Shown in pieces: positions 9,691 to 40,239 of a stretch of 64,000 nt of DNA (the first letter of the stretch is position 1; every line of letters starts with the position of its first letter). This stretch comes from Nocardioides xinjiangensis (GTDB lineage Bacteria > Actinomycetota > Actinomycetes > Propionibacteriales > Nocardioidaceae). A model generated the notes under the pieces. That model saw nothing but the letters and a program-made list of their open reading frames with translations, had not been told where the DNA came from and did no database searches. A program made the position numbers and the translations under genes. The stretch is from contig NZ_JAFMSY010000001.1 of NCBI RefSeq assembly GCF_017916455.1, positions 2,153,977 to 2,217,976 on the forward strand. Reading direction: 5' to 3'.

Positions 9691-10649
9691 CCCGCTTCGG
9701 TTACTTCCTCTCCTGCGAGGAGTACGCGCCGGAGCAGCTGCTCGAGCAGGCACGCCTCGCCGAGCGGGCCGGCTTCGACAGCCTGTGGATCAGTGACCAC
9801 TACCACCCGTGGAACAACGCGCAGGGGCAGTCGCCGTTCGTCTGGTCGATGATCGGGGCGGTCGCGCAGGTGTGCGACCTGCCCGTCACGACGGCGGTGA
9901 CGTGCCCGACCGTGCGCGTCCACCCGGCCGTCGTCGCGCAGGCGGCGGCGACGTCGGCGGTGCTCCTCGGCGAGGGCCGCTTCACCCTCGGCGTGGGCAC
10001 CGGCGAGGCGCTGAACGAGCACGTGCTGGGCGATGCCTGGCCCCGCACCGAGAAGCGGCTGGAGATGCTGGAGGAGGCGGTCGAGGTCATCCGCCGGCTC
10101 TGGACCGGCGAGGTGGTCTCGCACGAGGGCCGGCACTACACCGTCGACACGGCGCGGATCTACACGCTGCCCGACGTGCCGCCGCCGATCTACATGAGCG
10201 CGTTCGGCCCCAAGGCGCTCGACGTGGCCTGCCGCATCGCCGACGGCTTCATCACCACCCAGCCCGACGCCGAGTCGGTGCGGACGTTCCGGGCGGCGAA
10301 GGGTGCCGACGCCCCGGCCCATGCCGGCTTCAAGGTCGCGTGGGGGCCCACCCGCGACGAGGCGATCGACGCGGCGTACGAGCTGTGGCCGAACTCCGGC
10401 GTGCCCGGTGAGCTCAGCCAGGTGCTGCCGAGCCCGCAGCACTTCGAGCAGGCCAGCGAGCTGGTGACCCGCGAGGCGTTCGCCGAGCAGGGCGCGTTCG
10501 GCCCCGACGCCGCCGAGCACGTCGAGGCCTTCGCGCCGTTCGTCGAGGCCGGCTTCGACGAGGTGTACGTCGCCAACATGGGCCCCCACTACGCCGACAT
10601 GCTCGCGGCCTACGGCTCCGACGTGCTGCCGGAGCTCCGCGGCCGCTAG
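9687..10649 (+). CDS. LLM-class F420-dependent oxidoreductase (G6PDH-like family)
   Basis: This 320-residue TIM-barrel enzyme starts TRFGYFLSCEEYAPEQLLEQA and contains AGFDSLWISDHYHPW, RFTLGVGTGEALNEHVLG and PPIYMSAFGPKALDVA, characteristic of luciferase-like monooxygenases and especially the F420-dependent glucose-6-phosphate dehydrogenase-like group. It uses coenzyme F420 for hydride transfer; the substrate may not be glucose-6-phosphate. The GTG at 9687 overlaps the regulator's stop, indicating translational coupling. It ends 13 bases from a convergent gene. Confidence 0.85.
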   Translation: MTRFGYFLSCEEYAPEQLLEQARLAERAGFDSLWISDHYHPWNNAQGQSPFVWSMIGAVAQVCDLPVTTAVTCPTVRVHPAVVAQAAATSAVLLGEGRFTLGVGTGEALNEHVLGDAWPRTEKRLEMLEEAVEVIRRLWTGEVVSHEGRHYTVDTARIYTLPDVPPPIYMSAFGPKALDVACRIADGFITTQPDAESVRTFRAAKGADAPAHAGFKVAWGPTRDEAIDAAYELWPNSGVPGELSQVLPSPQHFEQASELVTREAFAEQGAFGPDAAEHVEAFAPFVEAGFDEVYVANMGPHYADMLAAYGSDVLPELRGR

Positions 10650-10662
10650 CCGCCCGCCCTCG

Positions 10663-11145
10663 TCACTCGAACTCGGGGTCGCCCTCGACGTCTCCCGGCC
10701 GGGCCTCGTGCCCCTCGCGCCCGCGGGTGCGGCGCAGCTCCTTCATCTCCGCCTCGAACACGTGGCGCTGGCCGTTCATCAGCTCGTCGAGCGCACGCTG
10801 GTGCAGGCCTTTGGTGCGGGCGTAGAAGCCGTCGTCGAAGGCGTCGACCATCTGGAAGGACCACATGCCGGGCAGCGGGTTCTGGCCCAGCACGTCGCGG
10901 TCCATCGCGTCGGCGATGTCGACGTGCCCCGCCTCGCGGACCAGCGCCTCGGCCTCCTCCAGCGTGCTCTCGGCGCTGCCCATCAGGCGGTGGAAGGCGT
11001 AGAGGTGGCCACGCGCGTCCTCGACGTGGTCGAGGGCGGCGGACAGCTTGCCCACCGCCTCGACGGTGGCGTCGGTGACGCCCTCGGGTCGGCGGCGCTC
11101 GGGCGCGGGGTGGTCGGGGATCGCGTCGGACGTGTGGTCGGGCAT
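10663..11145 (-). CDS. Conserved hypothetical actinobacterial protein
   Basis: This soluble 160-residue protein is rich in charged residues and probably largely helical, with MWSFQMVDAFDDGFYARTKGL in the centre and basic/acidic tails. I recognise no enzyme motif or signal peptide. The ATG at 11145 is the natural start (MPDHTSDAIP). It lies downstream of the DUF6766 operon on the same strand, with a 61-base gap, so it may be transcribed separately. Function unknown. Confidence 0.6.
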   Translation of the reverse strand: MPDHTSDAIPDHPAPERRRPEGVTDATVEAVGKLSAALDHVEDARGHLYAFHRLMGSAESTLEEAEALVREAGHVDIADAMDRDVLGQNPLPGMWSFQMVDAFDDGFYARTKGLHQRALDELMNGQRHVFEAEMKELRRTRGREGHEARPGDVEGDPEFE

Positions 11146-11206
11146 GGTGCGAGGCTCACAGGTGCCGGTCGGGTGCCGCCACCCACCAAGGGGTCAGTTG
11201 TCGCGC

Positions 11207-11881
11207 TCAGCCCTCGACGCCGGTGGACCCGTGCGGCTGGCCGACCGGCTTGCTCTGCGAGGACCCGCGCTGGCGCAGGTAGATCGTGAGCACGGCCATC
11301 GCGCCGACCGCGAGGAACTCGCTCTGCCAGTTCTGCAGGGTGCGCGCCCAGAAGTCGGCGTTGCGCAGGTAGGACGTCCACGACAGCGGGTCCTGGAGCT
11401 GCTGGAGGCGCTGCTCGTTGAAGGCGGCCCACCCCGCCACGGACTGGACGAGCCAGGACGCGAGGAAGATCGCGCCCATCACCATGGCCAGCGAGGAGGA
11501 GTAGACCCGGGTCCGCCAGCCTCCGGTCCTCGCCCACGCGGGGGAGTCGGCGACGGCGTGGGCGCCGATCTTCTGGTCCTCGTCGGACTCCCGGCCGGCC
11601 TTGTCGAGCTCCTTGGACTCCGGGGAGCCCTTCTGCAGCAGCCAGACGGTGGCCATCAGGTAGAGCCAGAACTGGAGGAACTCGCTCTGCCAGTTCTCCG
11701 CGACGTCGACGGCGAAGTCGGAGGAGGTCACGTAGCCGGTCCAGGTGAGCGGGTCGAGGTGCTCGGCCACCTGGAGGGCGTTGAGCTGGTGCCACCCGGC
11801 GACGGACTGCCCGGCCAGGCTCAGCACGAAGAGCGCCCCGAAGAACAGGCTCAGCGAGTTGTGGCGCAGGAACGTGCGCAT
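11207..11881 (-). CDS. DUF6766-like membrane protein with internal duplication
   Basis: This 224-residue protein has four hydrophobic segments arranged as two repeats. The first half has AGWHQLN, DPLTWTGYVTSSDF and NWQSEFLQF; the second has AGWAAFN, DPLSWTSYLRNADF and NWQSEFLAV. The halves evidently arose by duplication and fusion of a two-helix unit. The pattern matches the DUF6766 family as I recall it; function is unknown. The start ATG at 11881 shares one base with the stop of a 27-residue peptide (TGATG), so the genes are coupled. Confidence 0.75.
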   Translation of the reverse strand: MRTFLRHNSLSLFFGALFVLSLAGQSVAGWHQLNALQVAEHLDPLTWTGYVTSSDFAVDVAENWQSEFLQFWLYLMATVWLLQKGSPESKELDKAGRESDEDQKIGAHAVADSPAWARTGGWRTRVYSSSLAMVMGAIFLASWLVQSVAGWAAFNEQRLQQLQDPLSWTSYLRNADFWARTLQNWQSEFLAVGAMAVLTIYLRQRGSSQSKPVGQPHGSTGVEG

Positions 11882-11964
11882 CAGGCGTGCCTCAGGGCGA
11901 GGAGGAGCAGTAGGGCCAGGCCGACGCAGATCACGGCCAGGTAGGCGACGAAGACCACCCGCAT
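11881..11964 (-). CDS. 27-residue single-span membrane microprotein
   Basis: The frame starts MRVVFVAYLAVICVGL and ends LLALRHA, a single hydrophobic helix with a basic residue at each end. Both junctions are TGATG: its ATG shares a base with the upstream lipoprotein stop, and its stop shares a base with the DUF6766 start. Two such junctions and the hydrophobic composition argue that it is translated. It is too short for most gene finders. A role as a small subunit or modulator of the DUF6766 protein is inference. Confidence 0.55.
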   Translation of the reverse strand: MRVVFVAYLAVICVGLALLLLLALRHA

Positions 11965-12371
11965 CACGGCACCGCCACGCTGCAGTCGTACGGCCGCCCG
12001 GCGACGGGGGTGCAGGCGGCCCCGACCACCAGCCAGCGCCCGTCGAAGCGGGACAGGAACACCGTGTCGGCCCCGAGGCGCACCTGCGCCATCGAGTCGT
12101 ACACCTCCACGTGCGCCGCGCCCGAGCCGCTGCCGAGGTCCTCCTGCAGCACCGCCCGCTCGCAGGGCCGGCCCGACTGCTGCTCGAGCTCGTCGCGTGC
12201 CGCCGGGGCGAGCAGGGCGCACGCCGCCGACCCGTCGCCGGTGTCGACGGCCCGGAGCAGCTGCTGCGCGGCGGACCGTGCCGGGGCGTCCTGCGACCCG
12301 GCGCAGGCGGCGAGCAGCAGCGCGCCGGCGCCTGTGAGCGCCAGCCGGGCGCCGACGGTCGTCCGGGTCAT
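11964..12371 (-). CDS. Putative lipoprotein of unknown function
   Basis: This 135-residue protein has a clear lipoprotein signal (RLALTGAGALLLAAC, Cys near residue 23) followed by a small alpha+beta domain. It contains four Cys after the lipobox (SAACALL, RPCERAV, GAACTPV, PYDCSV), possibly two disulfides outside the membrane. The pattern AAQQLLRAVDTGDGSAACALL resembles NTF2-like/DUF4878-type exported domains. First gene of the three-gene operon with the microprotein and the DUF6766 protein. Function unknown. Confidence 0.7.
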   Translation of the reverse strand: MTRTTVGARLALTGAGALLLAACAGSQDAPARSAAQQLLRAVDTGDGSAACALLAPAARDELEQQSGRPCERAVLQEDLGSGSGAAHVEVYDSMAQVRLGADTVFLSRFDGRWLVVGAACTPVAGRPYDCSVAVP

Positions 12372-13144: not shown

Positions 13145-14326
13145 ATGAAGGCAGTCACCTGGCAGGGCAAGCAGGACATGCAGGTGGTGGAGGTGCCCGA
13201 CGCGAAGATCGAGGAGCGCACCGACGTCGTGGTCCAGGTGACCTCGACCGGTCTGTGCGGCTCCGACCTCCACCTCTACGACCCGCTGACCCCCTTCATG
13301 ACGGCGGGCGACGTCGTGGGCCACGAGCCGATGGGCGTCGTGCGCGACGTCGGGTCGGCGGTGACCACCCTCAAGCCCGGTGACCGGGTCGTCGTCCCCT
13401 TCAACATCAGCTGCGGCACCTGCTGGATGTGCAGCCGCGGCCTGCACAGCCAGTGCGAGACCACCCAGAACCGCGACACCGGCACCGGTGCGAGCCTGTT
13501 CGGCTACAGCAAGCTCTACGGCCGGGTGCCCGGCGGGCAGGCCGAGCTCCTGCGCGTGCCGTTCGCCGACACGCTGCCGATCAAGGTGCCGGACGGCCCG
13601 CCGGACGACCGCTTCCTGTTCCTCTCCGACGTGCTGCCCACCGCGTGGCAGGCGGTCGAGTACGCCGACGTCGAGGACGGCGGCACGCTGCTCGTGGTGG
13701 GCGCCGGCCCGATCGGCGACATGGCGGCACGCATCGGGATGCACCGCGGGCTGCGGGTCATCGTGGTCGACTCGGTGCGCGAGCGGCTGGCCCGCGTGCA
13801 CGGCCGCGGGGCCGAGACGATCGACCACACCCAGGTCGACGGGGTCGGCGACGCCGTCCGGGAGCTGACCGACGGCCGCGGCGCGGACGCCGTCATCGAC
13901 GCGGTCGGCATGGAGGCGCACGGCTCCCCGGTCGCGGAGACCGCGCAGAAGGCGCTCGGGCTGCTGCCCAAGAAGGTGCAGGAGAAGGTGATGCTCAACG
14001 TCGGCTCCGACCGGCTCGCCGCGCTCCTCAGCGCCATCGACGCCGTGCGCCGGGGCGGCACGATCAGCATCTCGGGCGTGTACGGCGCGCCCACCGACCC
14101 GCTGCCGATGTTCGAGCTGTTCGACAAGCAGGTGCAGCTGCGGATGGGGCAGGCCAACGTGCGTCGCTGGAGCGACGACATCCTCGACCTGCTGCAGCAG
14201 GACGAGGACGTCCTGGGCGTGGAGTCGTTCGCCACGCACCACCTCCCGCTCGACGACGCGCCCGAGGCCTACCGCAAGTTCCGCGACAAGGAGGACGGCA
14301 TGGTCAAGGTGGTGTTCAACCCGTGA
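13145..14326 (+). CDS. Zinc-dependent alcohol dehydrogenase (MDR family)
   Basis: This 393-residue medium-chain dehydrogenase has catalytic zinc ligands in GLCGSDLHLYD and GHEPMG, structural-zinc cysteines in NISCGTCWMCSRGLHSQCE, and a Rossmann motif VVGAGPIGDMAARIG. It resembles the glutathione-independent formaldehyde dehydrogenase-like subgroup with an insert before the C-terminus. It oxidises an alcohol or aldehyde with NAD(P). The ATG at 13145 follows GAGGAGG. Its stop overlaps the GTG of the diiron enzyme gene, the first junction of a coupled three-gene operon. Confidence 0.88.
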   Translation: MKAVTWQGKQDMQVVEVPDAKIEERTDVVVQVTSTGLCGSDLHLYDPLTPFMTAGDVVGHEPMGVVRDVGSAVTTLKPGDRVVVPFNISCGTCWMCSRGLHSQCETTQNRDTGTGASLFGYSKLYGRVPGGQAELLRVPFADTLPIKVPDGPPDDRFLFLSDVLPTAWQAVEYADVEDGGTLLVVGAGPIGDMAARIGMHRGLRVIVVDSVRERLARVHGRGAETIDHTQVDGVGDAVRELTDGRGADAVIDAVGMEAHGSPVAETAQKALGLLPKKVQEKVMLNVGSDRLAALLSAIDAVRRGGTISISGVYGAPTDPLPMFELFDKQVQLRMGQANVRRWSDDILDLLQQDEDVLGVESFATHHLPLDDAPEAYRKFRDKEDGMVKVVFNP

Positions 14327-15279
14327 GGCTGCCCAAGCCCCGCGGCGGCCTGAGCGAGTGGGTCGTCGCCCGGCTCGCCGACGCGGGTGCCGCCGGCGCC
14401 GCGCCCGCCGCCGACTCCCTCGAGGACGAGGCGCTCGCGCTGTGGACGCTCCACGAGCTGTCCTACCGCGGATTCGAGGACGCCGACGACCACGCCGAGT
14501 GGGACCCCGAGGTCCTGCACGTGCGCCACGGGCTGGAGGTGGCCCTGGAGGACCGGCTGCGGTCGCGCTGGGAGGCGGCACGGCCGGTTGCGGGCGACCT
14601 GCCCGACGACGTGCCCGCGGCGCTCGAGGCGCTCGTGGCCGCCGACGACGGGCCCTCGCTCGCCGACCACGTGCGGCGTCGCGCCGACCTCGACCAGGTG
14701 CTGGAGCTGCTGCGCCAGCGGTCGATCTACCACCTCAAGGAGTCGGACCCGTCGGCCTTCGTGGTGCCGCGGCTCCCGGTCCGCGCCAAGGCGGCGCTGA
14801 TGGAGCTGCAGTACGACGAGTACGGCGACGGCGACCCCAACCGGCTCCACGCCCACCTGTTCGCCCGCGGCCTCGAGGCCGCCGGGCTGCGTCCCGAGTA
14901 CGGCGCGTACATCGACGACGCCATCGCCGAGAACCTCGAGATGAACAACGCCGGCTCCCTGTTCGGGCTGCACCGCCGGCTGCGCGGCGCGGCGATGGGC
15001 CACCTGGCCGCGTTCGAGATGACCAGCTCGATCCCCTCGCGGAAGATGGCCCAGGGCCTCGACCGGCTGGGTCTCGACGGACCGATGGCCGCCTACTACG
15101 ACGAGCACGTCGAGGCCGACGCCATCCACGAGCAGCTCGCCGCGCGCGACATCTGCGGCACCCTCGCCGAGGACGAGCCGGACCAGGCGATGGAGATCCT
15201 CTTCGGGGCGTGGACGTGCCTCGACGTCGAGGCCCGCTTCGCGACCGCGATGCTCGCCTCGTGGGGCGCGGACCGATGA
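14323..15279 (+). CDS. Iron-containing redox enzyme, haem-oxygenase-like diiron fold
   Basis: This 318-residue protein starts with GTG overlapping the dehydrogenase stop. The N-terminal third has LWTLHELSYRGFED; the C-terminal domain has GLHRRLRGAAMGHLAAFEM and YYDEHVEADAIHEQL. The spaced E, H, E, H residues match the metal ligands of haem-oxygenase-like diiron oxidases (HDO superfamily; known members oxidise amines or cleave fatty acids). It is probably a cytosolic oxygen-activating enzyme; the substrate is unknown. Its stop overlaps the CDGSH gene start as ATGA. Confidence 0.8.
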   Translation: MRLPKPRGGLSEWVVARLADAGAAGAAPAADSLEDEALALWTLHELSYRGFEDADDHAEWDPEVLHVRHGLEVALEDRLRSRWEAARPVAGDLPDDVPAALEALVAADDGPSLADHVRRRADLDQVLELLRQRSIYHLKESDPSAFVVPRLPVRAKAALMELQYDEYGDGDPNRLHAHLFARGLEAAGLRPEYGAYIDDAIAENLEMNNAGSLFGLHRRLRGAAMGHLAAFEMTSSIPSRKMAQGLDRLGLDGPMAAYYDEHVEADAIHEQLAARDICGTLAEDEPDQAMEILFGAWTCLDVEARFATAMLASWGADR

Positions 15280-15476
15280 GGGAGCGCGACTTCGACCACC
15301 CCGAGGTGGTGCTGTGCCCCGACGGGCCAATGCTGCTGCGCGGGGCGCGGTCGGTGCAGGACGCCGACGGCACCGTCCACCCGGTCCGGCGACCCGTCGT
15401 GGCGCTGTGCCGCTGCGAGAAGTCCAGCCGCCTGCCGTGGTGCGACGGGACGCACAAGGTCATCCCGAAGGGCTGA
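15276..15476 (+). CDS. CDGSH iron-sulfur domain protein
   Basis: This 66-residue protein consists of one CDGSH domain: CRCEKSSRLPWCDGTH supplies the three Cys and one His that hold a labile 2Fe-2S cluster (mitoNEET type). Such proteins transfer electrons or clusters. The ATG at 15276 overlaps the diiron gene stop (ATGA), so a dedicated electron supply to the diiron enzyme is a reasonable inference. It ends at a short convergent junction with a hairpin. Confidence 0.88.
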   Translation: MRERDFDHPEVVLCPDGPMLLRGARSVQDADGTVHPVRRPVVALCRCEKSSRLPWCDGTHKVIPKG

Positions 15477-15482
15477 GACCGG

Positions 15483-15501
15483 CCGGGCCGCTCAGGCCCG
15501 G
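15483..15501. terminator. Hairpin between convergent operons
   Basis: CCGGGCC-GCTCA-GGCCCGG forms a 7-bp GC stem with a 5-base loop, starting 7 bases after the CDGSH stop and including the stop codon of the converging methyltransferase gene. No T-run follows. It could serve as a shared terminator for both operons. Confidence 0.45.
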
Positions 15502-16109
15502 TCGATCCGCGCCAGCACGCCACGCACCTGCTGTCGTACCTCGACCACGGCGAGCCGGCCCTCGGTGAAGCACGGCTCGGACCGCAGCGCGTCGGTCTGC
15601 GCCCGGGTGCCGACCTGGAGGATCGCCGAGCCTCCGGGAGCCAGGTGGTCGTCGACCACGGCCAGGCAGGCGCGGGCCACGTCGAGGCCGTCGTCGCCGC
15701 CGTCGATGGCGGTGAGCGGGTCCGCGGGGTAGCGCCCGGTCTGCTCCCGCGGCACCCACGGCGGGTCGGCGATGACGACGGGGAACATCTCGCCGTCGGT
15801 CAGCGCCTCCTGCAGACGTGACTCCCGGACCTCGACCCGGTCGGCCAGGCCGTTGGCCACGGCGTTGGCCCGGGCGTAGTCGCAGGCGACGCCGTTGGCG
15901 TCGACGCACACCAGTCGGCGCCCGGTCGTCGCGACGGCGAGCAGGCCGATGTGGCCGGCGCCGGCGCACAGCTCGAGCACGGGACCGCCCGGTGCGGTGG
16001 CCATGAGGTCCGCGGCCCACTCCGACTGGGCCGCCGTCCACGCGCGCGGGCGCAGCACGCGGTCGTCGAAGGCGATGGTCAGCGAGCCGAACGCCATGTG
16101 CTCGGTCAC
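15492..16109 (-). CDS. SAM-dependent methyltransferase (DPPW type)
   Basis: This 205-residue class I methyltransferase has motif I VLELCAGAGHIGLLA, acidic motif II VCVDANGVACDYA and the catalytic motif IADPPWVPRE. The (N/D)PP(Y/W) motif is typical of enzymes methylating amino groups on nucleobases or glutamine side chains, though small-molecule members exist. The GTG at 16109 overlaps the upstream stop (GTGA); a possible ATG lies 12 bases inside. It is the last gene of the seven-gene glycosyltransferase operon, so a tailoring role there is possible. Confidence 0.78.
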   Translation of the reverse strand: MTEHMAFGSLTIAFDDRVLRPRAWTAAQSEWAADLMATAPGGPVLELCAGAGHIGLLAVATTGRRLVCVDANGVACDYARANAVANGLADRVEVRESRLQEALTDGEMFPVVIADPPWVPREQTGRYPADPLTAIDGGDDGLDVARACLAVVDDHLAPGGSAILQVGTRAQTDALRSEPCFTEGRLAVVEVRQQVRGVLARIDRA

Positions 16110-17767
16110 GGGGTCTCCTGCGTCGTCGGGCCGGTCGTGGATCCGGAGGCTCGGCCCTTGGCGGCGCTGCGGCCCGGGCGCAGCCGGTCGGTGCGCTGCT
16201 GCCAGATCGCGGCGCGGGCGGCATTGGCCCCCGCGGCCCCGTGCACGCCGCCGCCGGGATGGGCCGACGCCGAGGCCAGGAACAGGCCCGGGAGGCCGGT
16301 CGCCGCGCGGCCGCGCATGGCCGGGACGGGCCGGAACACCAGCTCCTGGTGCAGCTGCGAGGTGCCGCCGTTGACGGCGCCGCCGATGAGGTTGGCGTCG
16401 CGCGCCTCGAGCTCGTGCGGGCCGAGGACCCGCCGGGCCAGCACGCGGTCGCCGAAGCCCGGAGCCACCGCCTCGATGCGGGCCTGCATCCGGTCGGCGA
16501 AGCGCTCGGCGTCGTCGTGGCCCCAGTCGCCGGTGACCTCGTCGCCGGCGTCGCGGCGGGTCATGCCGGGCTGCGGCACGTGCGTGTAGGCCCAGAACGA
16601 CTCGGTGCCGGCCGGCGACCGGGTGGGGTCGCTGGCGGTCATCTGCCCGGTGAGCAGGAACGGCCGGTCCGGCACCACGCCGGAGGAGACCTGGGCGAGC
16701 GTCTGCGTCATCTCCTCCACCGAGTCCGCGACGTGCACCGTGCCGGGCGCGAGCTCGGGGCCGTTGGTCCACGGCACGGGTCCCGACAGCGCCCAGTCGA
16801 CCTTCACCGTCCCCGGGTCCAGCTCGAAGTCGCGCATCCCGCGCACCAGGCGGGGAGGCAGGTGCTCCTCGGCGACGAGCCCGCCGAAGAGGTGCGCGGC
16901 GGAGACGTCGGCCAGCACCGCACGCGCGGCGTACGACCGCCCGTCGCGGGTGCGTACGCCAGCCGCGCGGCCGTCGCGCACGTCGACGTGCGTGACCTCC
17001 GCGTCGGTCACCAGCTCGCCGCCGAGCGAGGTGTAGCGCGCCACGAGCGCGTCCGTCAGGGACTGCGCGCCGCCGCGGGGCACGGGGAACCCGACCGTCT
17101 GGCCGAGCATCGTCATGAGCACGCCGAAGACGCCGGACCCCGGGGACGCGAGCGGGAAGTCGGCGTGGCCGGCGTTGCCCGCGAGCAGCAGCGCCGCGGC
17201 GGGCCCGGAGAAGAGCTCGCGACCCAGCGACGCGACGGGGGTCGCCAGGCGGCGGACGGTGTCCAAGCCGCCGGCGCGGGCGAGCGCGGGCAGCAGCCGC
17301 GCCCCGGCGCGCACCGGCGGGAACGGTGAGGTCAGGGCGTCGACCATCGAGGGCCCGATGCGGTCCCACGTGCGGCACAGGTCCAGCCACGCGTCACCGT
17401 CGCCGGGGCACAGCGCGTCGAGCCCGGCCGCCGTCGCCGCCCGGTCGCGGTGCAGCACCGCCCACTGCCCCTCGCCGAAGGGGTTGCCCAGCACGGCGGG
17501 GGCGTGGTCCCACACCAGGCCGTGGTCCTCCAGCCGCAGCGACGTGATCGCCCGCGAGGCCAGCGCCAGCGGGTAGAACGCGCTGAACGTGTCGTGCACG
17601 AAGTCCGGGTGCACCTCCCGGTCGCTGCGGACCGCGCCGCCGGGGGTCGGCTGGGCCTCCAGGACGACCACGTCCCACCCGGCGTCGGCGAGCAGGTTGG
17701 CGGCCACCAGTCCGTTGGGCCCGGCGCCGACCACGACGGCGTCGTACGACGCGGTCCCGGCGGTCAC
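16106..17767 (-). CDS. FAD-dependent oxidoreductase, phytoene-desaturase/PYROXD2-like
   Basis: This 553-residue flavoprotein opens with the dinucleotide-binding motif VVVGAGPNGLVAANLLADAG followed by LEAQPTPGGAVRS, and ends with LFLASASAHPGGGVHGAAG, the C-terminal FAD signature of carotenoid desaturase-like enzymes. Relatives desaturate or isomerise isoprenoid chains, but the PYROXD2-like group has poorly known substrates. It starts with GTG at 17767 overlapping the SRPBCC stop and ends overlapping the methyltransferase start. The last 25 residues are a basic, probably disordered tail. Confidence 0.85.
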   Translation of the reverse strand: MTAGTASYDAVVVGAGPNGLVAANLLADAGWDVVVLEAQPTPGGAVRSDREVHPDFVHDTFSAFYPLALASRAITSLRLEDHGLVWDHAPAVLGNPFGEGQWAVLHRDRAATAAGLDALCPGDGDAWLDLCRTWDRIGPSMVDALTSPFPPVRAGARLLPALARAGGLDTVRRLATPVASLGRELFSGPAAALLLAGNAGHADFPLASPGSGVFGVLMTMLGQTVGFPVPRGGAQSLTDALVARYTSLGGELVTDAEVTHVDVRDGRAAGVRTRDGRSYAARAVLADVSAAHLFGGLVAEEHLPPRLVRGMRDFELDPGTVKVDWALSGPVPWTNGPELAPGTVHVADSVEEMTQTLAQVSSGVVPDRPFLLTGQMTASDPTRSPAGTESFWAYTHVPQPGMTRRDAGDEVTGDWGHDDAERFADRMQARIEAVAPGFGDRVLARRVLGPHELEARDANLIGGAVNGGTSQLHQELVFRPVPAMRGRAATGLPGLFLASASAHPGGGVHGAAGANAARAAIWQQRTDRLRPGRSAAKGRASGSTTGPTTQETP

Positions 17768-18201
17768 TTGACGCGGCCCTCCACCACGAAGGCCAGGCGC
17801 CGCAGCGTCTCGATGTTGCGCCAGTGCAGCTGCGCGTCGCGCAGCGGCTTGGGCACCAGCAGGCCCGGCCCGGCCGTCGCGTCCTCGGTGATCGTCACGA
17901 CGGTGGTGTCGCCGTCGGGCTCGAGCGAGATGTCGACGTGCGCCTGACCGGCGGGCCAGCCGCGGGCGAGCAGCAGGATGCGCCTGCCCGGCTCGCTCTC
18001 GAGCACCTCGGTGTTGTCGTCGATCAGCAGCGGCCACGTGCCCACGCTGTGGTGCAGCTTCGCGCCCACGGCGGGCCAGGCCTCGTCGACGTCGCGCATC
18101 CGCGAGGCGCCGACGACGAACAGCGGGTAGAGCCAGCCGTCGGCGAGGACCTCCCACACCTGCTCCGGGGTGGCCTTCAGGGGTCGACTCGTCGTGCTCA
18201 T
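17764..18201 (-). CDS. SRPBCC (START/Bet v1-like) family protein
   Basis: This 145-residue protein begins STTSRPLKATPEQVWEVLADG, the usual opening of polyketide cyclase/SRPBCC domains, and continues with LESEPGRRILLLARGWPAGQAHVDISLEP. The fold makes a hydrophobic pocket for lipids or aromatic ligands. It lies between a glycosyltransferase gene and the FAD enzyme gene, overlapping both by 4 bases, so it probably binds the pathway's hydrophobic intermediate (inference). The ATG at 18201 forms ATGA with the upstream stop. Confidence 0.8.
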   Translation of the reverse strand: MSTTSRPLKATPEQVWEVLADGWLYPLFVVGASRMRDVDEAWPAVGAKLHHSVGTWPLLIDDNTEVLESEPGRRILLLARGWPAGQAHVDISLEPDGDTTVVTITEDATAGPGLLVPKPLRDAQLHWRNIETLRRLAFVVEGRVK

Positions 18202-19055
18202 GCAGTCCTCTCCTTCGCGTCCGGTGCCGGTCGTGCCCTCTCCCAGTGCCCACCTCGGCGGCGGACCAGTCCTCGACGCTCGAACTCCTCCAGCCACCCC
18301 CGCATCGGCCACTCCCCCCACCGGTCGTGGAAGAGCCTGCCGTTGCGGAGGATGTCGTCGAGGTGCTCGACGGGCGGGCTGCTCACCGGGTGGTGCTGGT
18401 GGTAGGCGCGGGCGGCGCCGACACAGCCGAGGGCGACGCCCCGCGACAGCGCCGCGCGGGCGAAGTCGGTGTCCTCACCGCCGTAGCCGGCGTAGTCCTC
18501 GCAGAAGCCGCCCGTCCGCGTCCAGGCCTCCCGGCCGACGGCGAAGGACAGCGACCAGAAGAGGTCGGGGTCCAGCGGCTCCACGAGCTGGCCGGGGACC
18601 GGTCGCGGCCGCGCCGGGTGCGGGTCGTCCCAGGCGTCGAGGGCCTCCGGGTCGTCGGGGTAGCCGTCGGCGGGAGGCGGGGGCAGGTAGGTCACCGGCC
18701 CCGACCAGATCGTCCGCGGCCGCGCGGTGACGACGTCGGCGTACGACGCCACCAGCCGCGAACCGGCGAGGCAGTCGACGTCGAGCAGGACGACGACGTC
18801 GGCGCCGCCGTCGAGCGCCGAGGCGACGCCGAGGTTCCGGGCGGCGGCGAGCGGGAGGGCGCCCTCACGCGTGCGCTCGATCCGCACCACGCGACGGGGC
18901 AGGGTCCCCTCCAGGTGGTCGGTGATGCCCGGGTCGTCCATGGCGACGGCGACGTAGTCGTCGGGCAGGGCGGTCCCCCGGGCCAGTGAGCGGTGCTGGG
19001 CCGCGAGGTGATGGTGCCGACCGTGGGCGATCGTGACGACGGCGACGCGGGTCAC
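18198..19055 (-). CDS. Family 2-type glycosyltransferase (galactosyltransferase-like C-terminus)
   Basis: This 285-residue GT-A fold protein begins VTRVAVVTIAHGRHHHLAAQ, has VVVLLDVDCLAGSRLV (the DxD metal/nucleotide site) near residue 95, and GGFCEDYAGYGGEDTDFARAA, the ED motif of the Glyco_transf_7C/galactosyltransferase-type acceptor region. It should transfer a sugar from a nucleotide donor in the cytosol. The GTG start at 19055 overlaps the upstream glycosyltransferase stop. Donor and acceptor are unknown. Confidence 0.85.
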   Translation of the reverse strand: MTRVAVVTIAHGRHHHLAAQHRSLARGTALPDDYVAVAMDDPGITDHLEGTLPRRVVRIERTREGALPLAAARNLGVASALDGGADVVVLLDVDCLAGSRLVASYADVVTARPRTIWSGPVTYLPPPPADGYPDDPEALDAWDDPHPARPRPVPGQLVEPLDPDLFWSLSFAVGREAWTRTGGFCEDYAGYGGEDTDFARAALSRGVALGCVGAARAYHQHHPVSSPPVEHLDDILRNGRLFHDRWGEWPMRGWLEEFERRGLVRRRGGHWERARPAPDAKERTA

Positions 19056-20083
19056 GACGCCGCCCCCGTCCCGGAGCGGCGGCGAGCCTCGAGCACCACC
19101 CGCGCGAACCGGTCGGCGGCCGCGCCGTCGCACCACTCGGCCCAGCGCGCCGGGTCGAGGGACGCCGCCCGGTCGAGGACCGGCGCCCAGTCGTCGGGCG
19201 CGGGCCAGGTGCCGCACACCACCGCGGGCCAGCCCCTCGCCAGGACGGCAGCGGTGGTCCGCTGCTCGTCGTGCGGGCGATGCTGCGGCACGACGACCGC
19301 GGGGCGGCGGGCCGCGGCCGTCTCGGCCAGGGCGTTCTGCCCGGCGTGGGTGACGACGACGTCGGACTCCGCGAGCACCGAGGCGGTGTCCGCCACCCAG
19401 GTCGACCGGTCCGCACCCAGCACGCGCCAGGTCCACCCCGGCGTGGCGGCGCAGGCGGCCTCCACGTCGGCGCGGTCGATGTCGTGCCCGCCGGTGCCGA
19501 GCAGCAGCGCGACCGTGCGGATCCCGGGACGGCGGTCGGTGCGGTCCCGGCGTACGGGATGGCGCGAGAGCGCCCCCACCGGCACGAGCTTCGCGCGCAG
19601 GTGGTCGGGCAGTCCGGGCGCCATGCCGTCGGCCGACTCGGGCCAGAAGCCCACGAGGACGTCGGCGACGCCCAGGCCGAGCAGGTGCGGCGGGTCGTCG
19701 CGGCGCCCGGGCAGCACCACGGCGACGACGGGGATGCCGTGCAGCCGCGCCAGCAGCGCCACCTCGACCGACACGTCGACCACGACGAGGTCCGGCCGGG
19801 CGGCCTCGATCCAGGCCGACACCGCGGCCGTCCGCGAGCGCAGCCCGTCGTGCTGCCGGGGCACCCAGTGCAGGTGGCCGCCCGCCGAGACGTCGGCCGC
19901 GGTGCCGCCGTCGTCGCGGGCGAGTCGCACCCAGTCGCCGGCCCAGCCGTCGGGCCGGGGAAGCGAGGAGAGACCGGTGACGCGGATCCCCTCGCGCTCC
20001 AGGCGCGCGGCCAGCACCTGTGCCCGGTGCCGGTGCCCGCTGCCGACGTGGTGGACGTAGTAGCCGACCACCGGCGCGGTCAC
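19052..20083 (-). CDS. MurG-like (GT28-type) glycosyltransferase
   Basis: This 343-residue GT-B protein has an N-terminal YYVHHVGSGHRHRAQVLAARL (glycine-rich acceptor loop) and a C-terminal nucleotide-sugar domain with VALLLGTGGHDI and VVVTHAGQNALAETAAARRPA, then PQHRPHDEQ. This is the pattern of the MurG/UDP-glucuronosyltransferase-like C-terminal domain. It is not murG itself: the context is not the division cluster. GTG at 20083 overlaps the GT4 gene's stop. Substrate unknown. Confidence 0.82.
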   Translation of the reverse strand: MTAPVVGYYVHHVGSGHRHRAQVLAARLEREGIRVTGLSSLPRPDGWAGDWVRLARDDGGTAADVSAGGHLHWVPRQHDGLRSRTAAVSAWIEAARPDLVVVDVSVEVALLARLHGIPVVAVVLPGRRDDPPHLLGLGVADVLVGFWPESADGMAPGLPDHLRAKLVPVGALSRHPVRRDRTDRRPGIRTVALLLGTGGHDIDRADVEAACAATPGWTWRVLGADRSTWVADTASVLAESDVVVTHAGQNALAETAAARRPAVVVPQHRPHDEQRTTAAVLARGWPAVVCGTWPAPDDWAPVLDRAASLDPARWAEWCDGAAADRFARVVLEARRRSGTGAAS

Positions 20084-21147
20084 GCCGCGTCCGCCTGCCC
20101 GGCGAGCTCGGTGTAGAGGTCGAGGTAGCGCTCCACCATCACGTCGGCGCTGCACGTGGCCTCGGCGTGCGCGCGCACCTCCCGGCGGTCGAGCAGGGCG
20201 GCGGAGCGCACCGCCTCGGCGAGCGCGTCCACGTCGCCGGGAGGCGCCAGCACGCCGGCCTGCGGCGCCACGACCTGGCTGAGCCCGCCACGGGCGAACG
20301 TGGCGACCGGGGTGCCGCTCGCCATCGCCTCGGCGGCCACCAGCCCGTAGGGCTCGTCCCACATGGGGGTCACGACGGCGACCGACGCCGCCCGGAGCAG
20401 GTCGGAGAGGTCGCGGCCCGTCAGGTGCCCGACCCACCGGGCGTCCGGCCCGAGCCGCGGCACGACCTCGCGCTCGAAGTAGCGCCGGTCCTGCACCGGC
20501 CCGGCGAGGAGCAGCGGCACGCCGGCGCGACGGCAGGCGTCGATGGCGAGGTGCGGCGCCTTCTCCGGGACCAGCCGTCCCGACCAGACCGCCGGCCCGC
20601 CCCCGTTGCCCGGGGGCCAGGCCGTGAGGTCGAGGCCGTTGAGCACGACCGCGCTGTCCACCGCGTGGCGCCACGAGGTCGCGGTCCAGTCGCTCACGGC
20701 GGCGAAGCGGGGCGGGCGGGGGCACAGGGCGAGCGCGGACTCGAGCATGGGCAGCGGCGGCGTGTGCAGCGTGGTGAGCATCGGCACGTCGAGGGCCGGG
20801 GACATCGCGATGGGGAGGTGGTGGAGGCTGTTGTTGTGCACGACGTCGTAGTCGTCGGCGCCGGTGCGCGCGAGGTCGAGCATCAGGGCGAGGTACGCGT
20901 GGTGCTCGGCCAGCCAGTCCGCGCCCGGGGCGAACTTGTCCGCCATCGCCGTGTCGCTGACCTCCACCTCCGAGAGCGGCAGGAACCGCACCGGGAGCGC
21001 GCTGTCGGAGCCGGCACCGGCGAAGAGGGTGACCTCGTGGCCCCGCTCCGCCAGCCCGCGCGCGATGGTGTGCGTCATCGACTCCAGCCCGCCCGCGAAG
21101 GGCTCTTTGATGGGGAATCGGCTGGAGGCGATGAGGCAGATCCTCAC
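20080..21147 (-). CDS. Family 4 glycosyltransferase
   Basis: This 355-residue GT-B enzyme has an N-terminal acceptor loop FAGGLESMTHTIARGLAERGH, a central VWSGRLVPEKAPHLAID and the C-terminal EPYGLVAAE (EX7E catalytic/donor motif) followed by ASGTPVATFARGGLSQVV. It is a retaining glycosyltransferase of the cell-surface or small-molecule glycoside type. It begins with ATG at 21147 overlapping the preceding stop (ATGA) and ends in a GTGA overlap with the MurG-like gene. Confidence 0.87.
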   Translation of the reverse strand: MRICLIASSRFPIKEPFAGGLESMTHTIARGLAERGHEVTLFAGAGSDSALPVRFLPLSEVEVSDTAMADKFAPGADWLAEHHAYLALMLDLARTGADDYDVVHNNSLHHLPIAMSPALDVPMLTTLHTPPLPMLESALALCPRPPRFAAVSDWTATSWRHAVDSAVVLNGLDLTAWPPGNGGGPAVWSGRLVPEKAPHLAIDACRRAGVPLLLAGPVQDRRYFEREVVPRLGPDARWVGHLTGRDLSDLLRAASVAVVTPMWDEPYGLVAAEAMASGTPVATFARGGLSQVVAPQAGVLAPPGDVDALAEAVRSAALLDRREVRAHAEATCSADVMVERYLDLYTELAGQADAA

Positions 21148-22223
21148 CGCGCGCCCTCCACCAGCGCCTCGTACAGGCGGGCGTGGGCGGCTGCGACGGC
21201 TGCGCGTTCTCGGCGCCGCTCGTCGACGGTGGGGGTGGGGGCGACCCGTCCGTCGTAGGCGGCGCGGACGGCCGCGGCCAGCCCGGCGGCGTCGAAGTGC
21301 TGCTCGTCGTGGCCGTAGGTCAGCACCGGAGCCTGGTCGGCGAAGTAGCCGCAGGTCGGGGCCACGACGGCGGTGCCGAGGTCGCGGCAGGCCTCGAGCC
21401 AGCCGCTGTGCGTGCCGAACCGGTAGGGCAGGACCGACACGTCGAGCGAGGCCAGGTAGTCCCAGAGGGCGTCGTCGTCGAAGTAGTCGTGGACCCGGAG
21501 GTCGACCTCGCCCCGGGCGGCGTGCGCGCGGAGGGCCTCCGCGAGCGCGGCGTCGTACCTCGCGCCACCGGGCTCGAGCACGTCGCGATGGCCGTTGACC
21601 TGGAGCACCGCGCCCGGCAGCTCGCGCACCGTCTCCACGAGCACGGGGACGACGACGTGCGGGTGCATGCCCGCGCGCAGGCTCTTGACGTGCACGCCGA
21701 GGCGGAACTCGCGCGAGCGGGGCCCCCGGCGGCGGACGTCACGCATGGCCGCCGCCCGGCGCATGACGTCCAGCGGGACGACATGGGGGTGCGGGAGCAC
21801 GAGCGCCTCGCGGCCCCACCGGTCGCGGATCTCGTCGGCAGCACCGCGGGTGAGGGTGACCAGCGCGTCCGCGGCCGGGACGAGGACGTCGAGCTGCCGG
21901 TCGTGGGTCTCGCGCTCGACGTGGTGCGGGTTGCGCAGGTCGTGCACCGTGAGCACCAGCGGCTTGCGCCGCCGGCGCAGCACGGCGACGAGGTCCTCGA
22001 GGTCCGCGACGCTGCGGGAGTCGAAGCCGAAGTGCACGTGGAAGACGTCGAAGTCGTGGGCGTCGGCCCAGGCGGCGTCCAGCATCACCGGCGGCCACCA
22101 CCGCTGCGTCTCCGCCGCCCCCTCCGGGACGGGGTCCGGCAGTCGCACCGGCCCGGAACCGTCCTCGGGCGCGATGTGGCGCACGTAGACGTGGTTGGCA
22201 GGCACCGAGGCGATGACCAGCAT
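21144..22223 (-). CDS. Glycosyltransferase, first gene of the seven-gene operon
   Basis: This 359-residue GT-B type protein contains DVFHVHFGFDS, LVLTVHDLRNP, VTLTRGAADEIRDRWG and a C-terminal LDVSVLPYRFGTHSGWLEACRDLGTAVVAP, all consistent with glycogen-synthase-fold transferases. I use the ATG at 22223, giving MLVIASVPANHVYVRHI, the family's usual N-terminus; a GTG at 22289 in frame would add 22 residues. No strong ribosome site supports either. Expression of the downstream genes depends on this promoter region, shared with the divergent GAF-ANTAR gene. Confidence 0.78.
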   Translation of the reverse strand: MLVIASVPANHVYVRHIAPEDGSGPVRLPDPVPEGAAETQRWWPPVMLDAAWADAHDFDVFHVHFGFDSRSVADLEDLVAVLRRRRKPLVLTVHDLRNPHHVERETHDRQLDVLVPAADALVTLTRGAADEIRDRWGREALVLPHPHVVPLDVMRRAAAMRDVRRRGPRSREFRLGVHVKSLRAGMHPHVVVPVLVETVRELPGAVLQVNGHRDVLEPGGARYDAALAEALRAHAARGEVDLRVHDYFDDDALWDYLASLDVSVLPYRFGTHSGWLEACRDLGTAVVAPTCGYFADQAPVLTYGHDEQHFDAAGLAAAVRAAYDGRVAPTPTVDERRRERAAVAAAHARLYEALVEGAR

Positions 22224-22450
22224 CGAGGCCCGCGAGCGGGGCAGCGGCAACACCGGCGGTGCACTCGCGGTCAGGTCAGAGATGGGCACGGTGCGAAGTA
22301 CCCCGGAGCAACGATTCGCATGCGTCCACGGCGCAGGTGCTTCCGCAGGGTGGTTCGCGGGGTGGTCCGTGTCGGGGCGGGCGGGCGGCACGGTAACGTG
22401 TGCGCGACTCAAGAACACGGGTCGGAGATTGCTGTCCTCGAGGATCTGCA

Positions 22451-23161
22451 TTGTCGTCCCACGACTCCTTGGCCGTGTTCGCGGCACTCGCTGCCGAGCT
22501 GCAGCAGGAGCCCGACGAGGTCCTGACCTCGCGCGCCATCGTCACGCGCATGCGTGAGTTCGTTCCCGAGGCCGACGAGGTCAGCCTCACCATCCGGACC
22601 GCCCGCGGCCACACCACGCTGGCGAGCAGCGGCTCCCTGGCGGAGGAGGCCGACTCCTTCCAGTACGAGCTGGGGGAGGGCCCGTGCGTCGAGATCTCCG
22701 ACTCGGGCGGTTGGTTGCGCAGCGGTGACGTCGGCACCGACGCGCGCTACCCGCGGTGGGGCCCGAAGGCGGCGGAGCTCGGCGTCGGCTCGCTGCTCGC
22801 CGTGGCGGTGGCGGACGCCGACGTCCCCCTCGGCTCACTCAACGTCTACAGCAGCCACGCCGGCGCGTTCGCCGACCGCGACGTGGTCGACCTCGCGCTC
22901 GTCTACGCCGTGCACGCCACCACGGCGCTGTCCTCGGCGCGCCGGACGACCACGCTGCAGACCGCCATCAGCTCGCGCCACGTGATCGGCATGGCGCAGG
23001 GCATCGCGATGGAGCGCTACGGCATCGACCAGCACCAGAGCTTCGAGCTGCTGCGGCGGCTGTCGTCGACCACCAACGTCAAGCTCCGCGACGTCGCCGC
23101 GCAGATCGTCGAGACCCGGGCCATCCCCCAGAACCGCACCGACGAGCAGGCCGACGACTGA
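22451..23161 (+). CDS. GAF and ANTAR domain transcription antiterminator
   Basis: This protein of about 236 residues has a GAF domain (SLTIRTARGHTTLASSG, YELGEGPCVEISDSG, GSLLAVAVADADVPLGSLNVYSS) and a C-terminal ANTAR domain (SSRHVIGMAQGIAMERYGI, then SFELLRRLSSTTNVKLRDVAAQIV). It should sense a ligand or redox state and bind paired RNA hairpins to prevent termination. The TTG at 22451 is preferred because GAGGA lies 6 bases upstream; GTG at 22400 or 22487 are alternatives. It is divergent from the glycosyltransferase operon. Confidence 0.82.
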   Translation: MSSHDSLAVFAALAAELQQEPDEVLTSRAIVTRMREFVPEADEVSLTIRTARGHTTLASSGSLAEEADSFQYELGEGPCVEISDSGGWLRSGDVGTDARYPRWGPKAAELGVGSLLAVAVADADVPLGSLNVYSSHAGAFADRDVVDLALVYAVHATTALSSARRTTTLQTAISSRHVIGMAQGIAMERYGIDQHQSFELLRRLSSTTNVKLRDVAAQIVETRAIPQNRTDEQADD

Positions 23162-24379: not shown

Positions 24380-25213
24380 GTGGTCCCCATGTCGATCGCA
24401 CCTGAGTTCCCCCGCACCACCCTGTCCACCGCGCCCGTCCCGCCCCTGGAGGGCAAGGAACGAGCACGTCGCACCGACGACATCGTGTGCGACCTCCGCG
24501 AGGCCCGCCGGGAGGTCGACTCCCAGGAGCTGGTCCGCCGGCTGATCGAGACCAACGCGGCAGTGGCTCGGACGATGGCCTCCCGCTACCGCAACCGAGG
24601 CATCGACCTCGACGACCTCGAGCAGGTCGCGCTGCTCGGGCTCACCAAGGCCGCTCAGAGGTTCGACCCCGAGGCCGGCCACGACTTCCTGTCCTTCGCC
24701 GTGCCGACCGTGCGCGGCGAGCTCCGCCGCCACTTCCGCGACTCCGGCTGGATGATCCGCCCGCCTCGCCGCGTGCAGGACATGCAGGCCCGGATCGCGG
24801 CGGCGCAGGAGGAGCTCGAGCCCCGGCTCGGTCGCTCGGCGCGGCCCTCCGAGGTCGCCGAGCATCTCGGCGAGGACCTCGCCGACGTCGTCGAGGCGCT
24901 CGCCGCGGACGGCTGCTTCACCCCCACCTCGCTCGACGCGACGGTCGCCGACGGCACCTCCACGCTGGGCGACCTGCTCGGCCAGGAGGACCGCGCCCAG
25001 GCGCGCGTCGAGGCCAGGGTCATGATCGAGCCGCTGCTGCGGCACCTGTCCCCGCGCGACCGCACGATCGTGCGGCTCCGCTTCTACGAGGAGCGGACGC
25101 AGCAGGAGATCGCCGAGGCCGTCGGCCTCACCCAGGCCCAGGTGTCGCGGGTGCTGACGCGCATCCTCGCCTCGCTCCGCGCCGACCTGTCCGAGCCGAA
25201 CCCGGCTGCCTGA
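24380..25213 (+). CDS. SigB/SigF-family RNA polymerase sigma factor
   Basis: This 277-residue sigma-70 protein has region 2 (ETNAAVARTMASRYRNRGIDLDDLEQVALLGLTKAAQRFD, -10 recognition and core binding), region 3 (RPSEVAEHLGEDLADVVEAL) and region 4 (LSPRDRTIVRLRFYEERTQQEIAEAVGLTQAQVSRVL, -35 recognition). This is the stress and sporulation-type SigB/F/G group. AAGGAAG 7 bases before the GTG at 24380 decides the start over the ATG at 24389. No anti-sigma gene is adjacent, which is unusual for the group. Confidence 0.9.
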   Translation: MVPMSIAPEFPRTTLSTAPVPPLEGKERARRTDDIVCDLREARREVDSQELVRRLIETNAAVARTMASRYRNRGIDLDDLEQVALLGLTKAAQRFDPEAGHDFLSFAVPTVRGELRRHFRDSGWMIRPPRRVQDMQARIAAAQEELEPRLGRSARPSEVAEHLGEDLADVVEALAADGCFTPTSLDATVADGTSTLGDLLGQEDRAQARVEARVMIEPLLRHLSPRDRTIVRLRFYEERTQQEIAEAVGLTQAQVSRVLTRILASLRADLSEPNPAA

Positions 25214-39900: not shown

Positions 39901-40239
39901 GATCTCCGAGGCGACGATGACGCCCCCGCCGCCGCCGACGACCCGCACGTGGCCGGCGCCCGCGGCGCGCAGCGACTCCACGAGGTACTCGAAGTACTCG
40001 ACGTGGCCGCCCTGGTAGGACGACACGGCGACGCCCTGGACGTCCTCCTCGAGGGCCGCGTCGACCACCTCCTGCACCGAGCGGTTGTGCCCGAGGTGGA
40101 TGACCTCGCAGCCCTGGCTCATCAGGATGCGCCGCATGATGTTGATCGACGCGTCGTGGCCGTCGAAGAGGCTCGACGCCGTGACGAGGCGGATCGGGTT
40201 CTGCGGGCGGTGCAGGGCGGGGCGGGCGAGGTCGGCCAT
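36991..40239 (-). CDS. icmF: Fused isobutyryl-CoA mutase IcmF
   Basis: This 1082-residue fusion has three parts: a B12-binding domain (SLFDGHDASINIMRRILMSQ, residues 15-140), a MeaB-type G-protein chaperone (Walker A ITGTGGSGKSS near residue 205, VAVDPTRRKGGGALLGDRIR, ETPGIGQGD) and the substrate-binding mutase barrel (about 560-1082; FSLRMMADIQEWFIEHQVRN). It interconverts isobutyryl-CoA and butyryl-CoA using adenosylcobalamin, and the GTPase part protects the cofactor. ATG at 40239 is 6 bases from a TACTAT -10 that overlaps a palindrome. marR lies directly upstream on the same strand. Confidence 0.95.
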   Translation of the reverse strand: MADLARPALHRPQNPIRLVTASSLFDGHDASINIMRRILMSQGCEVIHLGHNRSVQEVVDAALEEDVQGVAVSSYQGGHVEYFEYLVESLRAAGAGHVRVVGGGGGVIVASEIARLRESGVTIFSPEDGQRMGLVGMINSVVADCDIDLWSDKPVTVDQVLSGDRFAVARAITGAEEGRLDEAMLADLRAAAQRRVVPVLGITGTGGSGKSSLTDEVVRRFRTDQQDKLRIAVVAVDPTRRKGGGALLGDRIRANALDGDRVFFRSLATRGAHEVPGHLADVIDVLKAAGHDLVIVETPGIGQGDAGIVPLVDHSLYVMTPEFGAASQLEKIDMLDFADTVAINKFERRGAKDALRDVGRQLVRNREAFGKQPHDMPVFGTSAATFNDDGVTALYQHLRDELAAAGLEVADGTLPRVDVRHSSGIRQVVPADRVRYLSEITETVRGYHARTAELAEAARHLQRVQHVADQLGEGDPGGVPALLEQARKAVPHELADQIAGWPAVVEAYSGDEQVVRVRDREITTRLTRESLSGNKIPRVALPRFTDHGELVRFWRNENLPGYFPFTAGVFPFKRDNEDPARMFAGEGDPARTNRRFKILSEGQPATRLSTAFDSVTLYGRDPDPRPDVYGKVGTSGVSVATLDDMKALYDGFDLVAPTTSVSMTINGPAPTVLAFFLNTAIDQQVDAFREREGREPSEEERASLAAYALANVRGTVQADILKEDQGQNTCLFSTEFSLRMMADIQEWFIEHQVRNFYSVSISGYHIAEAGANPISQLAFTLANGFTYVEAYLARGMAIDDFAPNLSFFFSNGMDPEYSVLGRVARRIWAVTMKEKYGASERSQKLKYHVQTSGRSLHAQEMDFNDIRTTLQALIAIYDNANSLHTNAYDEAVTTPTEESVRRALAIQLIINREWGLAMNENPLQGSYVIDDLTDLVEAAVLEEFDRINERGGVLGAMETGYQRGRIQDESMLYEHRKHDGTLPIIGVNTFLRGNGGDAGSSGPQEIELARATEAEKESQLARVRAFQAEHGAEAQEALARLKDAAVSGENVFAVLMDAARVCSLQQVTEAFFEVGGQYRRNV

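Follow-up and report, generated by a model that had tools for sequence, protein, structure and literature searches.

Here, we report that the seven-gene run on the minus strand of the Nocardioides xinjiangensis contig NZ_JAFMSY010000001.1 (positions 2,153,977 to 2,217,976; this 64,000-nucleotide stretch is referred to below as the window) is best explained as a composite operon. In this explanation, to which we assign a probability of roughly 0.68, a stress-linked mobile cassette of four glycosyltransferases (GTs), GTa-GTb-GTc-GTd, has had separate stress units appended to it in one clade of Nocardioides. The run covers 15492-22223, probably starting from 22289, and all seven open frames are present. 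A sequence-only reading of the window had described an operon of seven overlapping genes without a synthase or transporter among them, which is borne out. It had also treated the seven as a joint set: they do form an operon in this clade and the four GTs are conserved together, but a single pathway for all seven is not upheld in relatives. The operon is laid out as follows.

22298..22323, minus strand: SigB/SigF-type promoter-like site GCAT-N16-GGGTAC with a predicted leaderless start, based on the sequence, pattern enrichment and the published consensus
21144..22289, minus strand: GTa, GT4-like glycosyltransferase; first Glu of EX7E absent, HSGWLE conserved
20080..21147, minus strand: GTb, GT4 glycosyltransferase with EX7E intact
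19052..20083, minus strand: GTc, MurG/GT28-like GT-B glycosyltransferase
18198..19055, minus strand: GTd, GT2/galactosyltransferase (GT7C)-like; DxD and ED motifs invariant
17764..18201, minus strand: SRPBCC (polyketide_cyc2-like) protein, the partner of the flavoenzyme in other loci
16106..17767, minus strand: FAD oxidoreductase (the flavoenzyme) of the CrtI/CrtO-like superfamily, scoring under the desaturase cut-offs
15492..16109, minus strand: HemK/PrmC-like methyltransferase with a DPPW motif in its sequence; score under the PrmC cut-off

The six junctions (21147/21144, 20083/20080, 19055/19052, 18201/18198, 17767/17764 and 16109/16106) are each exactly 4 bases long, reading GTGA at five and ATGA at one. 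In 131 cassette loci, a 4-base overlap joins GTb to GTc in 108/119 cases, GTc to GTd in 85/116 and GTa to GTb in 69/97, compared with 188/879 (21%) of the other same-strand neighbour pairs in the same loci. Given this background, the 4-base overlap is a sign of an operon, although not a rare one. The 5' end of the operon is probably the GTG at 22289 rather than the ATG at 22223, since the -10 box of the SigB-like site sits 8 bases before the GTG.

The four-glycosyltransferase cassette in Actinomycetota

The cassette was followed in a GTd-centred set of loci: 20-kb regions at 40 of the 44 family genomes with an orthologue (the window apart), regions from a phylum sample and 80 named loci (a genome-contig scan yielded 561 relatives, of which these are the best 80). 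With 561 relatives in that scan, the cassette is common. Neighbourhood comparisons rest on codon-model gene calls (raw open reading frames were dominated by overlapping shadow frames). GTd has a single orthologue in each of 44 of the 120 sampled family genomes; in the phylum sample, 13 of 346 genomes have GTd and 12 have GTa, each of the 12 being also among the 13. Among the best 80 of 561 relatives, the closest named GTd matches are Nocardioides, and the cassette hosts are Nocardioides, Aeromicrobium, Janibacter, Streptomyces, Mycolicibacterium, Rhodococcus, Gordonia, Nocardia, Brevibacterium, Klenkia and others.

Of 120 non-identical loci spread over Actinomycetota, 90 have the called gene order a-b-c-d and a further 18 have b-c-d. 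Rearranged genes or a duplicated GTa occur in several of the deepest relatives, but most of the genes there are still adjacent. The protein distances of the GTs correlate with one another (pairwise Spearman coefficients of 0.52-0.77 in up to 20 genomes), and the flanks of the cassette vary between loci. GTa is also carried by seven Rhodococcus plasmid records (449 to 1356 kb), and the one such plasmid region that was inspected holds the complete four-GT cassette and, at a distance of about 6 kb, a SigB/SigF-family gene. Judged from these sequences, GTa-GTb-GTc-GTd is apparently a self-contained and mobile unit, which may have been transferred between species. On the linear megaplasmid pRhX5 of Rhodococcus erythropolis (L244), a four-GT cassette lies within about 10 kb of a SigB/SigF/SigG-family sigma factor, and within the same distance of a HemK2/MTQ2-type methyltransferase, a GAF protein and an FAD-dependent oxidoreductase.

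The cassette is built of known enzyme families. Four different glycosyltransferase folds had been claimed for it; the four glycosyltransferases stand, but they represent three types in two folds, namely two GT4-like GT-B enzymes (GTa and GTb), a MurG/GT28-like GT-B enzyme (GTc) and a GT-A enzyme (GTd), with GTb and GTd assigned by family. The EX7E motif is one criterion for GT4 membership; by family, GT4 enzymes are retaining, and GT28 and GT2 enzymes are inverting. GTa scores 29.5 bits against Glyco_transf_4 (Pfam cut-off of 28.5) and has no sequence match in the PDB at E 0.01. Its model, with a predicted local distance difference test (pLDDT) score of 88.1, adopts a GT4-type GT-B fold, the nearest structures being sucrose-phosphate synthase (Z 23.2), GlgM (22.6) and MshA (22.5). 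The EX7E motif of GTa is incomplete: E277 is invariant in 23 sequences, and the residue eight positions earlier is an invariant F269. In GTb the motif is complete, with E265 and E273 invariant across 22 sequences, and both Pfam cut-offs are exceeded (Glycos_transf_1, 75.8 bits against 26.4; Glyco_transf_4, 60.8 against 28.5).

Used as a profile, GTb, with its EX7E residues retained, matches two solved GT4 enzymes over its full length, the alpha-1,2-glucosyltransferase Tll1591 (E 3.5e-54) and the cyanobacterial UDP-glucose:tetrahydrobiopterin glucosyltransferase (E 3.5e-50); as a single sequence, however, GTb is distant from both (102.8 and 107.7 bits), and such likeness does not disclose the acceptor. 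A pterin glycoside, at which these relatives hint, was kept as a lead only, because Tll1591 scores about equally and GT4 acceptors are unreadable from sequence. GTc exceeds the cut-off of Glyco_tran_28_C (31.8 bits against 22) but misses the MurG equivalog (24.6 against 250.25). Its model (pLDDT 92.5) superposes on E. coli MurG, the nearest structure (Z 26.6, root-mean-square deviation 3.2 Å over 310 residues, 21% identity), although macrolide and plant-type GTs follow within about 3 Z units. GTd passes Glyco_transf_7C (27.1 against 23), and its DxD residues D92 and D94 are invariant in 35 sequences. It shares sequence regions and the DxD motif with chondroitin synthase (E 1.6e-15 over residues 5-131) and beta-1,4-galactosyltransferase (E 5.2e-5 over a 40-residue region). 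Nevertheless, at 285 residues GTd is under half the length of chondroitin synthase, and no polymerase partner was seen.

The SRPBCC, flavoenzyme and methyltransferase genes

Besides the window, 7 of the best 80 of 561 loci (L124-L130), all of them Nocardioides, have the full seven-gene operon; near relatives are over-represented among these 80, so the seven-gene form is rarer than 7/80 implies. L126 and L128 were taken as the same genomes as L040 and L039. Five of the seven loci hold 4 bases at all six junctions, the exceptions being L125, where 10 bases separate GTd from the next gene, and L130, where GTc and GTd are called with an overlap of 13 bases. Two further loci (L145 and L148) have all the genes inside 20 kb in other arrangements.

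A linkage check was run in relatives, and there the last three genes are scattered. A flavoenzyme orthologue (E <=3.1e-128, which excludes a partial match of 61% identity over 166 residues in G026) is present in 83/120 family genomes. Of the 36 genomes with both genes, seven have it at most 10 kb from GTd (G000, G082, G067, G061, G072, G005 and G105), in a count that also covers drafts in which the genes fall on separate contigs, at an undefined distance; in two more (G044 and G096) it lies about 20 kb away. Neighbours within 1.5 kb were then counted in 164 loci around GTd, flavoenzyme, M2 or M3 genes (M2 and M3 are partner modules described below), after removal of 11 loci of the seven-gene clade. 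The 30 distinct flavoenzyme copies (31 with repeats retained) have an SRPBCC gene beside them in 18 cases, a zinc-type alcohol dehydrogenase (ADH) in eight and a GT in two. Reciprocally, 19 of the 26 SRPBCC copies have the flavoenzyme nearby and two a GT. Around the 15 distinct methyltransferase copies (17 with repeats), a CDGSH or haem-oxygenase-like (HO) gene occurs in 10, a GT in four, SRPBCC in three and the flavoenzyme in two. SRPBCC and the flavoenzyme are thus a pair of their own, and the methyltransferase mostly accompanies CDGSH/haem-oxygenase-like genes. In G108, an SRPBCC-flavoenzyme-methyltransferase block with convergent CDGSH-HO genes (L231) stands without GTs, 1.5 Mb from the GT cassette. 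The distances of GT and flavoenzyme proteins are almost uncorrelated (Spearman 0.07-0.27 in up to 20 genomes, with or without the seven-gene clade).

The family assignments point the same way. The flavoenzyme had been read as isoprenoid-desaturase-like and as a clue to the product, which its scores do not bear out: it misses the curated cut-offs of CrtO (188.2 against 1000 bits), the CrtI family (108.6 against 238.1) and CrtD (71.2 against 580). The methyltransferase likewise falls short of PrmC (85.6 against 199.1) and of the HemK family (66.1 against 115.5), and a true PrmC is encoded elsewhere in the window genome (236.5 bits). A carotenoid or isoprenoid glycoside was rejected as a specific product, the flavoenzyme being below the desaturase cut-offs and seldom near GTs outside one clade; the wider suggestion of a hydrophobic or isoprenoid scaffold found no specific support.

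Promoter pattern and stress neighbourhood

In the accessible parts of two reports, the SigB/SigL/SigM promoters of S. coelicolor are described as having a -35 box, GNNT, that is weak, and GGG..A at -10 (PMC8346170), and the SigB -10 box is stated as GGGTAC/G (PMC3184153). The pattern GNNT-N14-16-GGGTAY, picked after viewing the upstream region of the window itself and from the known consensus, lies upstream of 42/120 cassettes (35%) and of 93/1007 other genes in the same loci (p=1.2e-12). The 120 cassettes are non-identical though not independent; after clustering at 70% identity the pattern precedes 32/86 (p=4e-11), and in the family set 20/41 cassettes compared with 47/338 controls. The reverse orientation gave p=0.57, and of five letter-permuted boxes one (GGTGAY) reached p=0.015 and the other four did not. 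A leaderless geometry, with the -10 box 6-10 bases before an in-frame start, was found in 27/120 cassettes compared with 29/1007 controls, 24 of the 27 having a spacing of 8 or 9; after clustering it remains in 15/86. Among alternative patterns, the G-N-TT form precedes 19/120 cassettes and 52/1007 controls, and TTGAC-TANNNT none and four, respectively. The cassette thus shares its GNNT and GGGTA(C/T) boxes with the Streptomyces SigB regulon (PMC8346170, in part), but the accessible part of Table 1 in that report lists no comparable GT operon.

The pattern is also enriched before other genes of these loci: ADH (9/25), HO (7/13), catalase (4/10) and a second FAD enzyme (FAD2; 4/7), and weakly before SRPBCC genes (4/13, p=0.02). 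No enrichment was seen before sigma (2/33), GAF (2/18), M2 (2/24), M3 (1/10) or methyltransferase (MT; 1/9) genes. In this gene-class comparison, the totals were 42/131 for M1 and 115/1382 for all other genes.

The neighbours were clustered in 56 regions: the window, 40 family regions and 15 phylum-sample regions, of which last group four hold a GTa-like gene alone. By number of regions, the commonest clusters are SigB/F-type sigma factors (18), zinc ADH (17), GAF proteins and another FAD oxidoreductase (12 each), catalase (11) and haem-oxygenase-like proteins (10). At least one SigB-type gene lies in 13/41 family regions; at about five SigB/F/G genes per family genome, about 1.1 would be expected in those regions (an excess of about 12-fold, p=1.7e-10, in which neighbours were detected by protein clustering and the background by hidden Markov models at E 1e-20). 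Near relatives, collapsed by eye, leave eight sigma-bearing regions (p=1.8e-5). From these patterns, many actinobacteria seem to turn the cassette on as part of their general stress response, and regulation is probably what unites the parts of the operon.

The neighbourhood of the operon in the window is as follows.

13145..14326, plus strand: zinc-type ADH, a recurring neighbour of these modules
14323..15279, plus strand: haem-oxygenase-like iron-containing redox enzyme (Haem_oxygenas_2)
15276..15476, plus strand: CDGSH iron-sulfur protein, convergent with the methyltransferase
22475..23161, plus strand: GAF-ANTAR regulator, divergent from the operon
24380..25213, plus strand: SigB/F/G-type sigma factor, 231.4 bits, just below the curated 234.35

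An AraC-type regulator accompanies the last two among the upstream divergent genes. The ADH, haem-oxygenase-like and CDGSH genes (13145-15476, plus strand) form an operon of their own with 4-base overlaps, ending 15 bases from the seven-gene run. Elsewhere in the window, a frame of 1082 residues at 36991-40239 (minus strand) has a start that by eye resembles a B12-binding acyl-CoA mutase fusion.

Partner modules, alternative explanations and proposed mechanism

Two modules stand beside the cassette in some loci: M2, a GT4-GT2 pair often joined by WcbI, and M3, which comprises an acyl-CoA-dehydrogenase-like gene, PIG-L, a NodS-like methyltransferase and a GT2. Counted through its GT4, M2 occurs in 14/120 family genomes, all 14 of which have the cassette (8.9 expected within genera, p=1.7e-4). 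The association of M3 is weaker: its acyl-CoA-dehydrogenase-like gene is in 34/120 genomes, 21 of them with the cassette (15.3 expected within genera, p=0.004). The two markers occur together in 11 of the 14 M2 genomes. The window genome holds the M2 GT4 (9824-10834) and GT2 (10912-12108) on another contig (L204, contig C4), with no WcbI there, and the M3 acyl-CoA-dehydrogenase-like gene is absent from it. In three loci an M3-type operon lies directly beside GTb-c-d (L203, 10880-13841; L160, 4676-7913; L165, 4715-7868), and the PIG-L protein is long in L160 (484 residues) and L165 (452 residues).

These modules bear on the strongest rival explanation, that the cassette belongs to a pathway for a capsule or cell-surface polysaccharide whose initiating transferase, flippase and polymerase are encoded elsewhere. 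The presence of the cassette in every genome with the M2 GT4 speaks for it, as do the WcbI of some M2 loci, which belongs to a polysaccharide-biosynthesis family, the resemblance of GTd to chondroitin synthase, and a MurG-like GTc that, judged from its model, could use a lipid-linked acceptor. The stress-type promoter pattern speaks against it, and no initiating transferase, flippase/transporter or polymerase was noticed by eye among the clusters in at least 5 of the 56 regions, a scan made without Pfam. The same scan, when used to look for a conserved scaffold gene, returned mainly stress-type, regulatory and general metabolic genes. We consider this rival unlikely.

The original proposal, that all seven enzymes build one methylated, glycosylated hydrophobic molecule (an isoprenoid, polyketide or lipid), draws on the single operon with its six overlaps, on the seven loci with the genes in line, on an SRPBCC protein from a lipid/polyketide-type family and on the within-genus co-occurrence of cassette and flavoenzyme (36 genomes, 29.6 expected, p ~0.001). 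Nevertheless, the linkage is loose elsewhere (7/36 genomes within 10 kb, and a GT near 2/30 flavoenzyme copies outside the clade), the GT and flavoenzyme distances barely correlate, the methyltransferase keeps mostly to CDGSH/HO genes, and both it and the flavoenzyme miss their curated cut-offs, which makes the proposal improbable. It is more improbable still that the four GTs are separate stress enzymes held together solely by shared regulation and transfer: this extends to them the explanation invoked above for the appended genes, and some loci have GTa absent or out of place, but order and 4-base overlaps are held over phylum distances, the GT distances are correlated, and the same four genes are still adjacent after rearrangement in several distant relatives.

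Several points weigh against the composite operon as set out here. A complete a-b-c-d is absent from 30/120 loci, in part through misses of the gene caller and in part where GTa is lacking or lies elsewhere, so the four steps may not always be required. With the first Glu of EX7E missing, GTa may be inactive or catalyse a different reaction. The promoter is a sequence match, seen before 35% of cassettes, and few cassettes have a -35 box of the classical GTTT form (7/120, compared with 22/1007 controls). The cassette and the flavoenzyme may still be functionally linked, given their co-occurrence, although a shared stress regulon would account for that co-occurrence too. Finally, the co-occurrence of M2 and M3 with the cassette hints at a full pathway larger than four enzymes, but the two modules carry the promoter pattern no more than background.

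For the composite operon, we propose the following mechanism. A general-stress (SigB/SigF-type) sigma factor would transcribe the cassette, as a leaderless message in part of the relatives. Working jointly, the four GTs would attach several sugars to an acceptor already present in most cells, either a small molecule or a lipid accessible at the cytosolic face, and the resulting glycoside or oligosaccharide would protect against stress. Alpha linkages would be formed with retention by GTb, perhaps from UDP-glucose, and perhaps also by GTa; GTc and GTd would form beta linkages by inversion. The SRPBCC-flavoenzyme pair and the HemK-like methyltransferase would be a separate unit of the stress regulon, fused downstream in one Nocardioides clade, so that their co-expression with the GTs would mirror shared regulation and not one pathway. 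A more far-reaching proposal, which we hold tentatively and at somewhat less than even odds, is a modular stress-induced glycosylation system in Actinomycetota, in which the mobile four-GT core works with M2 and M3, in trans or in cis, to make decorated oligosaccharides or glycosides for stress survival. A literature search, with most subscription papers outside its coverage, returned nothing that we recognized as describing such a cassette or cluster.

A tight operon with 4-base overlaps therefore need not equal one pathway, as co-regulation within a stress neighbourhood can look alike. The interesting part of this operon is its four-GT cassette, which is conserved, apparently mobile and stress-linked. 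With its spread over the phylum, its presence on some megaplasmids and its apparent tie to stress, it points to a protective glycan or glycoside that actinobacteria may share.

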